Positions 17,915 through 21,629 of a stretch of 21,753 bases of DNA are shown one piece after another. The notes under the pieces are model-generated. The model had not been told where the DNA came from and did not search any database. It was given only the letters and a program-made list of their open reading frames with translations. This stretch comes from a virus, in the IMG/VR virus record IMGVR_UViG_3300025483_000083, positions 1-21,753 of that record; one strand, 5' to 3'. Made by a program: the position numbers and the translations under genes. Numbering within the stretch: the first letter of the stretch is position 1; the number at the start of each line of letters is the position of its first letter.

Positions 17915-18726
17915 TGTTAGGCACTTACTCATATCACGAAGTTATTAAAAAAACAGTTGTCGGATTCGGCACACTGTTTAACAATATTGAGCTTCGTCGC
18001 ACAGACAATGCTGGCAATGTTGAAGAGGTAATGAAAGTGCCTCTGGCGTATGGTCCTAAGCAAAAATTTCTTGCAAGACTTCGCCAAGTTGGTGATCTAA
18101 CACAGAAGGATCAAGTGCAGATCACTATGCCTCGAATCTCTTTCGAGATTAATGGCATCTCTTATGATCCCACTCGGAAAGTATCTCCTACTCAATACAT
18201 CAGAAACACTGGTGAGAATGGGAAGCAGGTCAAGATGTTTGCACCTGTCCCATACAATATCAATTTTGAGTTGGCGATCCTCGCTAAAAACCAGGATGAT
18301 TCGTTGCAGATCCTGGAGCAAATTCTTCCATACTTCCAACCTAGTTTCAATATCACAATGACACTGGTGCCTGAGTTGGGTGACAAAAAAGATTATCCAG
18401 TTACACTCACGTCGGTAGATTACCAAGATGAGTATGAGGGTGATTATGACACACGTCGCACGCTGATTTATACCTTGCAGTTTGTTGCCAAGACCTATCT
18501 CTATGGTCCTGTCAATGACTCCACTAACGAGGTTATCAAGAAAGCGATTGTGGATTATTCCACTACAATGGATACCCAGAATGCTCCTCGTGAGGTGCGT
18601 TATACAGTCCAACCTGATCCTATTACAGCGGATGCTGGTGACGACTTTGGTTTCAATGAAATGACGAGTTACTTTACCGATGCAAAACAATACAACCCCG
18701 TCACAGGACAAGACGAAGACGTTTGA
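17914..18726 (+). CDS. 15: Tail sheath stabiliser and completion protein gp15 (T4-like)
   Basis: gp15 forms the terminator ring on top of the tail tube and sheath and binds the neck. Signature blocks: GFGTLFNNIELRR near the N-terminus (T4 has a comparable LFSNIQIKR), VPLAYGPKQKFLARL, ITMPRISFEINGISYD (about 69-84), and the strongly conserved ILEQILPYFQPSFNITM (about 131-147; T4 has IVEQILPYFQPHFNTTM). At 270 residues it matches T4 gp15 (272). The start ATG overlaps the gp14 stop (TGATG at 17912-17916), a classic coupling arrangement. Its 3' end overlaps the proposed gp16 start by 47 bases. Confidence 0.92.
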   Translation: MLGTYSYHEVIKKTVVGFGTLFNNIELRRTDNAGNVEEVMKVPLAYGPKQKFLARLRQVGDLTQKDQVQITMPRISFEINGISYDPTRKVSPTQYIRNTGENGKQVKMFAPVPYNINFELAILAKNQDDSLQILEQILPYFQPSFNITMTLVPELGDKKDYPVTLTSVDYQDEYEGDYDTRRTLIYTLQFVAKTYLYGPVNDSTNEVIKKAIVDYSTTMDTQNAPREVRYTVQPDPITADAGDDFGFNEMTSYFTDAKQYNPVTGQDEDV

Positions 18727-19129
18727 TGGTATTGAGGATGCTATGGATGTAGAGACGGAAGTCGTCCCTGCAGAACCAGCACCTCTCGCCAAAGCGGAAG
18801 AGATTGTTACTTCTACGAAGGAGCAACTCAAGAAAGACTATGAATACACTCGTGGCAACCTTTACTCACTGATCGAAAAAGGTCAAGAGGCAGTGGATGG
18901 CATCCTTGAGTTAGCACAGGAGTCCGATCAACCTCGTGCTTTTGAAGTCGCTGGTCAGTTGATTAAGCACGTCGGTGATGTAGCAGACAAACTGGTAGAC
19001 CTTCAGAAGAAGGTTGCTGAGATCGAAAACCCCAAGAAAACAAAAGAGGTCAATACTACAAACAACACTATGTTTGTTGGTAGCACTGCAGACCTAGCTA
19101 AATTTCTAAAGTCTCAACAAGATAAATAG
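18680..19129 (+). CDS. 16: Terminase small subunit gp16 (T4-like)
   Basis: gp16 is the DNA-recognition and regulatory subunit of the packaging motor. The family pattern is clear: a short acidic N-terminus, a central helical region LKKDYEYTRGNLYSLIEKGQ (T4 has a comparable LEDDYGVVRRNMHF), then ESDQPRAFEVAGQLIKHVGD (T4 NADSPRHMEVFATLMGQM), and the C-terminal NNTMFVGSTADLAKFLK block (T4 NATVFMGSPTELM). Length 149 against 164 in T4. Start is uncertain: ATG 18680 keeps FDGIEDAMDVE but overlaps gp15 and has no clear Shine-Dalgarno, while ATG 18743 has GAGG 5 bases upstream and gives 128 residues. The large subunit gp17 does not lie directly downstream in this window. Confidence 0.87.
   Translation: MQNNTTPSQDKTKTFDGIEDAMDVETEVVPAEPAPLAKAEEIVTSTKEQLKKDYEYTRGNLYSLIEKGQEAVDGILELAQESDQPRAFEVAGQLIKHVGDVADKLVDLQKKVAEIENPKKTKEVNTTNNTMFVGSTADLAKFLKSQQDK
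19121..19128 (+). promoter_or_regulatory. T4-type late promoter box (GATAAATA)
   Basis: GATAAATA matches the T4 late consensus except for its first base, the same position that varies in the box at 8987. It lies over the last codons of gp16 (the stop TAG is 19127-19129), 23 bases before the ATG of the 91-aa gene. The spacing suits a promoter for the gene cluster after gp16. Part of the match is forced by Asp-Lys-stop codons, so it is less certain than the first. Confidence 0.5.
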
Positions 19130-19428: not shown

Positions 19429-21168
19429 ATGCCTGCCGTCTCGAAAAAACAGCAGCGTTTCTTTGGGATGGTCCGAGCTGCTCAAAAAGGTGAAGGAGCA
19501 GCATCGCCTGAGGTTGCTAAAGTTGCTACCAACATAAAAAAGAAAGACGCTAAAGACTTCGCCTCCACCAAACACAAAGATCTACCAATGAAGAAAGAAG
19601 GATTTATTAACGAAGAAGACTACGATCGCATGAAAGATCGTCGCATGGAGCGTGGTGGCGTTGGTGGCAACCGACGTTACAGCAAACCAGTTAGTAACAC
19701 ACCAAATACATTTGGTAAGAAAAAACCAAATTATGATGGTATGTCAGCACTTGAAAAAGTAAAAGCAGATATCCGTGCTAAGCATGGTGATAAAGCACTT
19801 AAAGAAGATGCCAAGATGGGTAAGCAGTCAGATGAGAAACTGGCAGCGTTACATAAGCAAGTCAGTGGTGCTGACCAGAGTCTCCCCTCTAATCAATTCA
19901 TGTTGAAGAGAGTGACGAAGGAAATGAATCGCAGAAAGAAAACAACCAAGACTGAGGGATATGCCCCTGGTGATGTTGATCAGAAGGTTGGTGCTGTAAC
20001 TCCTATCCCTAAGCAGGATCAGGATGATGCTCGTGCAAGAATCCTTGCAAAGGCAAAGGCCAAGCGTGCCGAGAGAATGAAAGAGTCAATGTGGAATGGC
20101 GTTGACATCTTTGAAGAGTTGTCAGATTGGGAGATTGAATTGATCTCCGATGATATGATTGAGGACATCATCCTTGATGTATTCACTGAAGAGTTGGCAG
20201 AAGGTAGAGAGATTGACGCTATCTCAGACATGCTCTGTGAGTCTGTTGACTATTCACTGAGTTTACTTACTGAGGTTACCAGTCCTGCTAAGGTTAATGC
20301 TCTTCGCTTGAAGGATAAATCATCTGCTGCTTCTGGTCAGGGACAAAGTGCTGGTAGAGATGCTGGTGCTGAAGCAAGGAGTCGCATTGGAAGTGGATCT
20401 TCATCGTCCTCAACGAGATCCGACAGACTTTCTAAAGTCAAGAGTGTTGCTAAGAAAGTTGGATCTGCACTGAAGTCTGGTCTTAAAACTGGCGCTAAAT
20501 TGGCACGCAAAGGCGCTGTCAAAGGATCTGAAGTTGCTGGTAAAGCAGCAGGTCATGCCAAAAATCTGGCGAAGGACATGGGAAGTGCCGCTAAGAAAGG
20601 ATATGATTCCACTCAATCATCTTCTTCCTCTAGCGACAGTAGCGATTCATCTTCCTCTTCTTCGTCATCCTCTTCCAGCTCTTCTAGTAGTAGTGATTCA
20701 GGTCCTAAGAAGCCTGGTCTACTCAGCAGAATTGGTAGCAAACTGAAGCGTGGTATCAAGAAAGCAGTTGGTGCTGGTGCAAGATCCCTTTCCCGTGGTG
20801 CTCGTAACGTAGCACGCAAACTGGGTGAAGAGTCTATCACTGAGCGTGCTGACATGTGGCATCCAGATCCTGAGAAGGATAAGAAACTGGGTGGTCCTGG
20901 TGCCAACCAGCGTGCTCGTGAAGATCGTGCTGCTGCATCCAAACCCAAGGAAGATCCTAAGAAACTGCGTCCTGGTGAGTCCTACATGGACTATTCCAAG
21001 CGTCAGAAGTCTTCCTATAAGTCAAGTGGTAGCACTGCTCGTGAGCGTCTACAGAAAGCAGGTGCAAAGATGTCACCTCCTAAGAAGGAAGGTCTGAGAT
21101 CTAAGATCAAGCGTAAGTTGGGTCTTGGTGAAGACGTGATGTCATTCAAGCAATTTATTGGAGAGTGA
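19429..21168 (+). CDS. Basic/acidic low-complexity virion-type protein with DUF3008-like N-terminus (579 aa)
   Basis: Start ATG 19429, 1 base after the previous stop; an in-frame TTG at 19414 would overlap that gene and precede the conserved MPAVSKKQQRFFGMVRAAQK. Residues 1-58 (with DAKDFASTKHKDLP) match what I recall as DUF3008, a short domain of unknown function. Order: DUF3008-like domain; FINEEDYDRMKDRRMERGG (about 59-77); a lysine-rich linker; an acidic helical part (about 225-280, LSDWEIELISDDMIEDIILD); a very basic Ala/Gly/Lys region (about 330-395); a 28-residue Ser/Asp tract (397-424); a second basic amphipathic part (GLLSRIGSKLKRGIKKAVGA); a charged tail ending MSFKQFIGE. Possible prohead-protease sites (L/I-x-E) fall between segments. 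It resembles a head-internal DNA-binding precursor; that is inference. Confidence 0.72.
   Translation: MPAVSKKQQRFFGMVRAAQKGEGAASPEVAKVATNIKKKDAKDFASTKHKDLPMKKEGFINEEDYDRMKDRRMERGGVGGNRRYSKPVSNTPNTFGKKKPNYDGMSALEKVKADIRAKHGDKALKEDAKMGKQSDEKLAALHKQVSGADQSLPSNQFMLKRVTKEMNRRKKTTKTEGYAPGDVDQKVGAVTPIPKQDQDDARARILAKAKAKRAERMKESMWNGVDIFEELSDWEIELISDDMIEDIILDVFTEELAEGREIDAISDMLCESVDYSLSLLTEVTSPAKVNALRLKDKSSAASGQGQSAGRDAGAEARSRIGSGSSSSSTRSDRLSKVKSVAKKVGSALKSGLKTGAKLARKGAVKGSEVAGKAAGHAKNLAKDMGSAAKKGYDSTQSSSSSSDSSDSSSSSSSSSSSSSSSSDSGPKKPGLLSRIGSKLKRGIKKAVGAGARSLSRGARNVARKLGEESITERADMWHPDPEKDKKLGGPGANQRAREDRAAASKPKEDPKKLRPGESYMDYSKRQKSSYKSSGSTARERLQKAGAKMSPPKKEGLRSKIKRKLGLGEDVMSFKQFIGE
20617..20700 (+). 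repeat. Poly-serine (Ser/Asp) tract
   Basis: 28 codons giving 25 Ser and 3 Asp, including 16 consecutive Ser. Codons are mixed (TCT, TCC, TCA, TCG, AGC, AGT), so the tract is kept at protein level and is not a simple DNA slippage product, although length change between relatives is likely. It separates two basic amphipathic segments and probably acts as a flexible linker. Confidence 0.85.
21139..21165 (+). other. Capsid-targeting-like peptide at the C-terminus of the 579-aa protein
   Basis: The last nine codons read MSFKQFIGE, directly before the stop. This parallels the T4 internal-protein targeting peptide (MKTYQEFIAE) and the start of the nearby 105-aa protein (MKSFKNFLSE). Here the Glu is the final residue, so cleavage after it would release nothing; a docking role is possible. 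Confidence 0.45.
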
Positions 21169-21169
21169 A

Positions 21170-21286
21170 ATGACTATTAAAACTTGTAAGTATTGTGGAT
21201 TGACTTCTCCCAAGGGGCATCAACGCCCCGATGCATACATGGAGAAGCACGAAAGAAATTGTCCCAAGAATCCCAATAACAAATGA
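21170..21286 (+). CDS. C2HC zinc-finger microprotein (38 aa)
   Basis: ATG 21170 lies 1 base after the stop of the 579-aa gene and has GGAGAG (21160-21165) as a ribosome binding site 4 bases upstream. The product, starting MTIKTCKYCGLTSPKG, has Cys6-x2-Cys9 and His27-x3-Cys31, a C2HC arrangement with 17 residues between the pairs, enough for one small zinc knuckle. It is rich in Lys, Asn and Pro and could bind nucleic acid or protein. Such tiny zinc-finger genes are easily missed. The tight packing and good ribosome binding site argue that it is real. I do not recognise a named family. Confidence 0.68.
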   Translation: MTIKTCKYCGLTSPKGHQRPDAYMEKHERNCPKNPNNK

Positions 21287-21311
21287 AAAGTCTTAGAGCC
21301 TGGAAATGCAA

Positions 21312-21341
21312 ATGAAATCCTTTAAGAATTTTCTATCCGAA
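21312..21341 (+). other. Capsid-targeting sequence with predicted prohead protease site
   Basis: MKSFKNFLSE followed by Ser: Met-Lys start, aromatic at position 4, F-(I/L)-x-E at positions 7-10, then a small residue. This matches the T4 internal-protein targeting peptide in length, spacing and the L/I-x-E cleavage rule. Confidence 0.6.
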
Positions 21342-21629
21342 AGCGTCAACATCTCTGGCGACTTTAACGGCAACCTCTACATCAACTCTGCTGAACAACA
21401 GCAGGTAGATGAAAAGTATTCTGCCGATGTTGAATGGAATGGCGAGTTGTATCAGATTGAACTGGTAAAGGAAGGTGAGATTCCATCCCGAAGAGAATTA
21501 TCAGAGATGCTTCAGGGAGATTATCCTGGAGCAATTGTGCAGAATGTATATCCAATTCCACGTTATAGTAATAATCTAAATATCACCAGGAGTAATAAGG
21601 TCCAACATCAAGGTCCTTATTTGGCATAG
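21312..21629 (+). CDS. Protein with T4-type capsid-targeting N-terminus (105 aa)
   Basis: ATG 21312 is chosen over the in-frame ATG 21306 because it places the peptide MKSFKNFLSE at the very start, as in T4 internal proteins (MKTYQEFIAE, cleaved after the last Glu by prohead protease gp21), and because GGA (21302-21304) then has normal spacing. The predicted cut Glu10|Ser11 would leave a mature chain starting SVNISGDFNGNLYINS. The rest is a compact alpha/beta-looking domain: VEWNGELYQIELV, then IPSRRELSEMLQGDYPGAIV, then VYPIPRY. I recall a conserved hypothetical of this type in cyanophages near the terminase genes. A capsid-internal protein is inferred from the targeting peptide; the mature function is unknown. 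Confidence 0.75.
   Translation: MKSFKNFLSESVNISGDFNGNLYINSAEQQQVDEKYSADVEWNGELYQIELVKEGEIPSRRELSEMLQGDYPGAIVQNVYPIPRYSNNLNITRSNKVQHQGPYLA

Follow-up and report, generated by a model that had tools for sequence, protein, structure and literature searches.

A likely T4-type capsid targeting sequence on a small cyanophage protein, shared with enzymes detected in cyanophage virions

The internal proteins IPI-III of bacteriophage T4 block restriction and Alt acts on RNA polymerase, and gp67, gp68 and most of gp22 are broken down and for the most part disappear as the head matures. As read from the T4 record, both IpII and IpIII begin with MKTYQEFIAE, IpI starts with MKTFKEFTSTTTPVSTITEA, in which the common part is MKTFKEF only, and Alt starts with MELITELFDED, which hardly fits; the core proteins gp67 and gp68 carry no N-terminal tag of this kind. 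The decapeptide of IpII and IpIII is their capsid targeting sequence (CTS; Mullaney and Black 1996, as reviewed in PMC9026906), and T4 genetics assigned its positions 4 and 7 to targeting and positions 8 and 10 to processing (PMC9026906).

We investigated a small gene in a 21,753-base IMG/VR fragment (the window, that is, the whole stretch of DNA analyzed), which comes from a T4-like cyanophage and extends from genes for the baseplate and neck to gp15 and gp16, as assigned by PHROG and Pfam families. The nearest named relative that we found for the window is Synechococcus phage S-SZBM1. Nucleotides 21312-21341 on the plus strand, ATGAAATCCTTTAAGAATTTTCTATCCGAA, encode MKSFKNFLSE, followed by Ser11, so that the open reading frame and its translation agree with the start of the 105-aa protein given in the preliminary description; the ORF program begins two codons upstream (21306, MQMKSF), and the homologues begin at the Met encoded at 21312. 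The protein matches phrog_1742 (E 2.7e-40), and a Pfam search with it returned no match. The preliminary description had aligned the peptide position by position with IPI-III and Alt. This alignment stands for IpII and IpIII, is partial for IpI and poor for Alt, so that "IPI-III/Alt" is too broad and should read IpII/IpIII.

The resemblance to IpII and IpIII comprises an N-terminal decapeptide with Lys2, an aromatic residue at position 4, Phe7, Ile or Leu at position 8, Glu10 and a small residue at position 11, common to otherwise unrelated proteins, and small, non-essential-looking genes in variable regions. The differences lie in the host family and the protein bodies, and in that cleavage, packaging and injection are steps that we infer for the cyanophage protein. 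Moreover, the T4 internal protein genes lie near the lysozyme gene, whereas the cyanophage gene lies between gp16 and gp17. Relatives were found in 137 phage records (E<=0.01), every one of them a phage of Synechococcus or Prochlorococcus or a cyanophage named otherwise, and in the records that we opened they reside upstream of gp17 (large terminase), in most cases flanked at a short distance by gp16 on their other side. The gp16-gp17 region has been described as a variable hot spot (PMC3037559). The related phages S-SZBM1, S-SCSM1 and S-CREM2 have genes for a gp21-type protease and a gp22-type core protein, the window being a fragment that does not reach them, and the cyanophage major capsid precursors carry LTE or LAE followed by A where a gp21 site would be expected.

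Table 1. Features of the window around the gene for the 105-aa protein
Feature	Position	Strand	Basis
Gene for the 105-aa protein, phrog_1742, function unassigned	21312..21629 including stop	+	ORF and translation
Putative capsid targeting sequence (CTS), T4-type, MKSFKNFLSE	21312..21341	+	T4 IpII/IpIII comparison and conservation
Predicted protease cut, after Glu10 and before Ser11	Ser11 codon, 21342-21344	+	predicted site
Folded body domain, residues 31-85, beta-beta-alpha-beta	21402..21566	+	AlphaFold, trimmed domain pLDDT 89.7, pTM 0.69
Second LxE triplet, residues 63-65, family-conserved, within predicted helix	21498..21506	+	L63 80/80, E65 79/80
gp16 (small terminase subunit), bounding on the left the variable region with the gene	18680..19129	+	phrog_445 E 7e-55, Pfam PF11053
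579-aa low-complexity protein, DUF3008-like N-terminus, S-SZBM1_194 homologue up to the tag	19429..21168	+	tblastn, families
Tag-like MSFKQFIGE, extreme C-terminus of the 579-aa protein	21139..21165 (stop to 21168)	+	sequence, tblastn
38-aa Cys/His-rich ORF, S-SZBM1_193 homologue	21170..21286	+	tblastn, 71% identity
KSLRAWKCK and stop, probable C-terminal remnant of a tagged DUF6321 gene (S-SZBM1_192)	21286..21315	+	position, homologous junctions, weak blast score

The immediate neighborhood of the gene contains further traces of the tag. In S-SZBM1, the tagged DUF6321 protein 192 adjoins the family gene; in the window it is absent save for the probable tail KSLRAWKCK, the stop of which overlaps the start codon of the 105-aa gene. 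The blast score of this tail alone is weak, and its position and the homologous junctions point to a probable leftover of a deleted tagged gene. At the position of MSFKQFIGE, S-SZBM1_194 reads ITYREFIAE and extends further, with a SAM-lyase domain following; the stop right after MSFKQFIGE in the window is possibly a truncation. General C-terminal tagging was considered and rejected: across all loci read, a closed strict C-terminal tag occurred only in this window protein and in one doubtful frame, and C-terminal tags in the three proteomes described below showed no excess over chance. Separately, the 69-aa DUF3008 protein S-SCSM1_93 (L019:41626-41832), which is labeled as a virion protein, ends with RTFKEFLEYIE, a tag-like C-terminus.

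Among the outcomes that the preliminary description named as counting against its reading was loss of the peptide in homologues that keep the rest of the protein; the homologue scans did not bear this out. The strict T4 register, M..[FYW]..[FY][ILMV].E, is present in all 80 unique homologues, with K2, F7 and E10 invariant and S, A or D at residue 11. Because the tag was among the seeds of this first scan, which risked ascertainment bias, we reran it with body-only seeds and also scanned a second family from its catalytic core. With body-only seeds, the tag was recovered in 78 of 80 relatives, 75 in register and 3 with one extra preceding residue (M[SA]KSFKQFLSES), and the remaining two have a rearranged and frameshifted upstream part without the tag. 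In these two (L391:272-560 and L398:1320-1600), the phrog_1742 body is out of frame with an upstream ..NCVKED[IV]NISGGSVGTIVIGGDLPKK that ends in a stop, at an A run; the frameshift common to both may be programmed or may reflect a decayed fusion.

The second family comprises the cyanophage NMNAT/cytidylyltransferases (T4-GC190; S-SZBM1_140, S-SCSM1_91, S-CREM2 gp154), which share with the 105-aa protein the N-terminal tag and the phage group, but are large enzymes with an unrelated body and a long variable linker, and are detected in virions by mass spectrometry (MS). The scan seeded with the catalytic core found the tag in 80 of 80 loci, 71 in strict N-terminal form and 9 in a form close to it, such as MKSFNNFFGEA or MKTLSNFLMEA. 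In the 68 unique sequences, it reads F-x-x-F-[ILF]-x-E-[AS], with F7 and E10 (T4 numbering) each present in all 68, positions 5, 6 and 9 varying freely, and a linker of 24-125 aa to the catalytic core; the constrained positions are the ones that T4 genetics linked with targeting (4, 7) and with processing (8, 10). NMNAT has been found in the virions of S-SM1 (PMC3037559), S-SCSM1 (PMC9602691), S-SZBM1 (PMC9146016) and S-CREM2 (PMC10665884), and the enzymes of all four phages are tagged, that of S-SM1 starting with MKKFSAFLNEA. In Klebsiella phage RaK2 and in Cronobacter phage GAP32, the homologue has no tag and starts at the catalytic core, and its counterpart in Stenotrophomonas phage DLP_6 carries MKNIKDILEA, a degenerate form. 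The main text of the RaK2 virion paper does not mention the cytidyltransferase, so that RaK2 is unusable as a negative control.

The association of the tag with virions was assessed in three cyanophages with published virion MS, S-CREM2 (PMC10665884, Table 3), S-SZBM1 (PMC9146016, Table 1) and S-SCSM1 (48 virion-protein labels in GenBank, 45 proteins according to PMC9602691), which together have 719 annotated proteins. The preliminary description had proposed a scan of related phages for the N-terminal pattern, and here [FYW]xx[FY][ILMV]xE, beginning within the first 7 residues, matched 8 of the 719 proteins, compared to 0.75 in shuffles, virion enzymes being among them. MS detection was recorded for 5 of the 8 tagged but 125 of the 711 untagged proteins (Fisher p 0.006; three cyanophages), a value that we treat as indicative because the numbers are small (8 tagged proteins), the looser variants were chosen by inspection and the pattern was refined with these families in view. 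The five tagged and detected proteins are the SAM lyase, APH-like kinase and cytidylyltransferase of S-CREM2, the NMNAT of S-SCSM1 and the cytidylyltransferase of S-SZBM1; the three without detection are two members of the 105-aa protein's family and S-SZBM1_192. In addition, the MS-detected Cas9-like virion protein of S-CREM2 carries RFASFMAEAA near residue 20, and two other MS-detected S-CREM2 proteins, gp13 (MKDLHSFLTE) and gp136 (MQTFSMFFSE, adjoining gp16), start with close variants of the tag. Together, conservation and the presence of the tag on proteins found in cyanophage virions support the reading of the peptide as a T4-type CTS.

The record of the family itself in virions bears on the fate of the protein. 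S-SZBM1_191, which is 90% identical to the 105-aa protein, is not among the 30 listed S-SZBM1 virion proteins, and S-SCSM1_30 bears no virion-protein label in the S-SCSM1 record, its neighbors being labeled. This non-detection in two virion proteomes lowers confidence in the 105-aa protein more than in the tag, and favors an alternative in which binding of the tag to the prohead core is real and the protein is a core component that is degraded and largely lost at maturation rather than an injected effector. Both experiments had little depth for small proteins. The nearly invariant second LxE triplet in the body, possibly a further, unproven protease site, points in the same direction, but it lies within a confidently predicted helix and may be kept for folding. 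Given also that gp67 and gp68 of T4 lack the N-terminal tag, that S-SCSM1_30 yields only two usable tryptic peptides (S-SZBM1_191 yields six), and that the virion MS of S-SZBM1 missed 8 of 32 predicted structural proteins (PMC9146016), we regard a degraded core component as unlikely.

We consider it more improbable still that the motif serves to bind something else, be it a chaperone, host protein or membrane, with detection in virions reflecting carry-over of abundant proteins: the conserved positions are those mapped in T4 for targeting and processing, the same enzyme appears in four independent virion preparations, and its RaK2 and GAP32 homologues lack the tag. Contamination is nonetheless allowed explicitly by the authors of the proteomes, who left it undecided against packaging for the virion enzymes (PMC9602691, PMC10665884) and noted for S-CREM2 that CsCl-purified particles may carry contaminants (PMC10665884), and RegA (S-SCSM1_70), untagged and non-structural, bears a virion-protein label too. 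Conservation at the level of nucleic acid, for example, of a translation-control site around the start codon, would fit the location of the tag at that codon and the AAA at codon 2 in 69 of 71 sequences. However, codons 3-12 vary at synonymous sites, so that it is the peptide that is under selection; moreover, the tag also occurs inside proteins and, in the NMNATs, shifts by one residue relative to Met. We therefore rejected conservation of the mRNA, to which we assign next to no probability.

The reading that we favor, and hold to be quite probable by analogy with T4, is that the first 10 residues are a T4-type CTS and that the protein would be core-bound, cleaved by gp21, retained and injected. 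Taken separately, it is likely that the tag on the 105-aa protein is a functional CTS, and likely that the protein is packaged in virions. During head assembly, the tag would bind the prohead core, and the protein would thereby be built into the prohead. The gp21-type protease would then cut after Glu10, giving a mature 95-aa protein (SVNISGD...) that would stay in the head with the DNA, enter the cyanobacterium at injection and act early. Our working guess is that its task in the cell might be to block a first-line host function, like T4 IPI-III or Alt.

In the AlphaFold model, the tag is disordered (residues 1-9, pLDDT <50) and the body is folded as beta-beta-alpha-beta over residues 34-81, with a helix at residues 60-70. 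A PDB sequence search with the protein gave a best E of 0.46, and fold searches of the body (Foldseek and PDB comparison) produced no secure structural match. The RNA polymerase inhibitor Gp2 of T7 (4lk0_M), which has a similar beta-beta-alpha-beta arrangement of about 50 residues, came out first or second whenever the body was compared with the PDB (Z 5.0 and 5.8, the latter with 2.4 A over 50 residues; Foldseek E 0.15-0.16), but these weak scores were tied with those of ribosomal proteins, and Gp2 has no sequence relationship to the 105-aa protein. Viral models with the domain of the body include the MS-detected virion protein S-SCSM1_29.

The tag extends well beyond these families. A DNA pattern for MKSFxxF[..]xE matched at least 120 stretches in IMG/VR, compared to 19 in all for a codon-permuted control of equal composition, and the ORFs from 80 of the matches listed formed at least 25 clusters whose sequences downstream of the tag share no detectable homology, including the S-AdoMet lyase PF23780, NMNAT, DUF6267, a methyltransferase-like protein and a zeta-toxin-like kinase. 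The lyase family (S-CREM2 gp6, L241) has tagged members, and the tagged lyase of L241 carries a C-terminal domain matching phrog_1742 (E 1e-4); it differs from the 105-aa protein in its catalytic lyase domain, which the latter lacks. The recurrence of the same label on enzymes found in particles of related viruses makes the tag a possible marker of proteins injected by cyanophages into host cells. More tentatively, and with a probability that we place a little short of even, T4-like cyanophages could run a general, tag-addressed protein-injection program of dozens of families, among them SAM lyase, NMNAT, kinase, Cas9-like nuclease, methyltransferase-like and zeta-toxin-like proteins and small candidates like the 105-aa protein, several with a second module, drawn partly from the gp16-gp17 variable region, with a tag that may also work internally or C-terminally.

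The T4-type CTS itself is already known; what is of interest here is its likely extension to cyanophage virion enzymes, and we found no report of a CTS in cyanophages in the open-access literature, subscription papers being outside the scope of the search. Cyanophage virion proteomes repeatedly report enzymes without an obvious reason to be in the particle, for which a T4-type peptide offers a concrete, testable mechanism. The tag also allows injected proteins to be sought by sequence in abundant aquatic viruses that are difficult to study genetically, and the proteins findable in this way probably include anti-restriction and early-takeover factors.

Several further observations were made along the way. 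A second module, approximately LGL..DGHGGWYD..GEFVAKT..G.L.F, is located behind the tag in NMNATs, in the S-CREM2 Cas9-like protein and, twice, in the S-CREM2 kinase, all of which are tagged (L019:38819-40045; L023:7707-12846, minus strand; L178, L182, L183, L185); among the untagged proteins of the three proteomes, none was found to carry it except for one weak match. A tagged 173-aa protein (L195:10529-11047, minus strand) has the pattern YHGT..S..GL, which on visual inspection recalls an ADP-ribosyltransferase, an activity that the packaged T4 protein Alt has; searches of Pfam and PHROG gave no match, and we therefore do not claim this identity. Finally, in T4, the 54-aa hypothetical protein gp61.1 (L014:18966-19130, minus strand) starts with MKTFKEFIKED and is a candidate for a further CTS protein of that phage.
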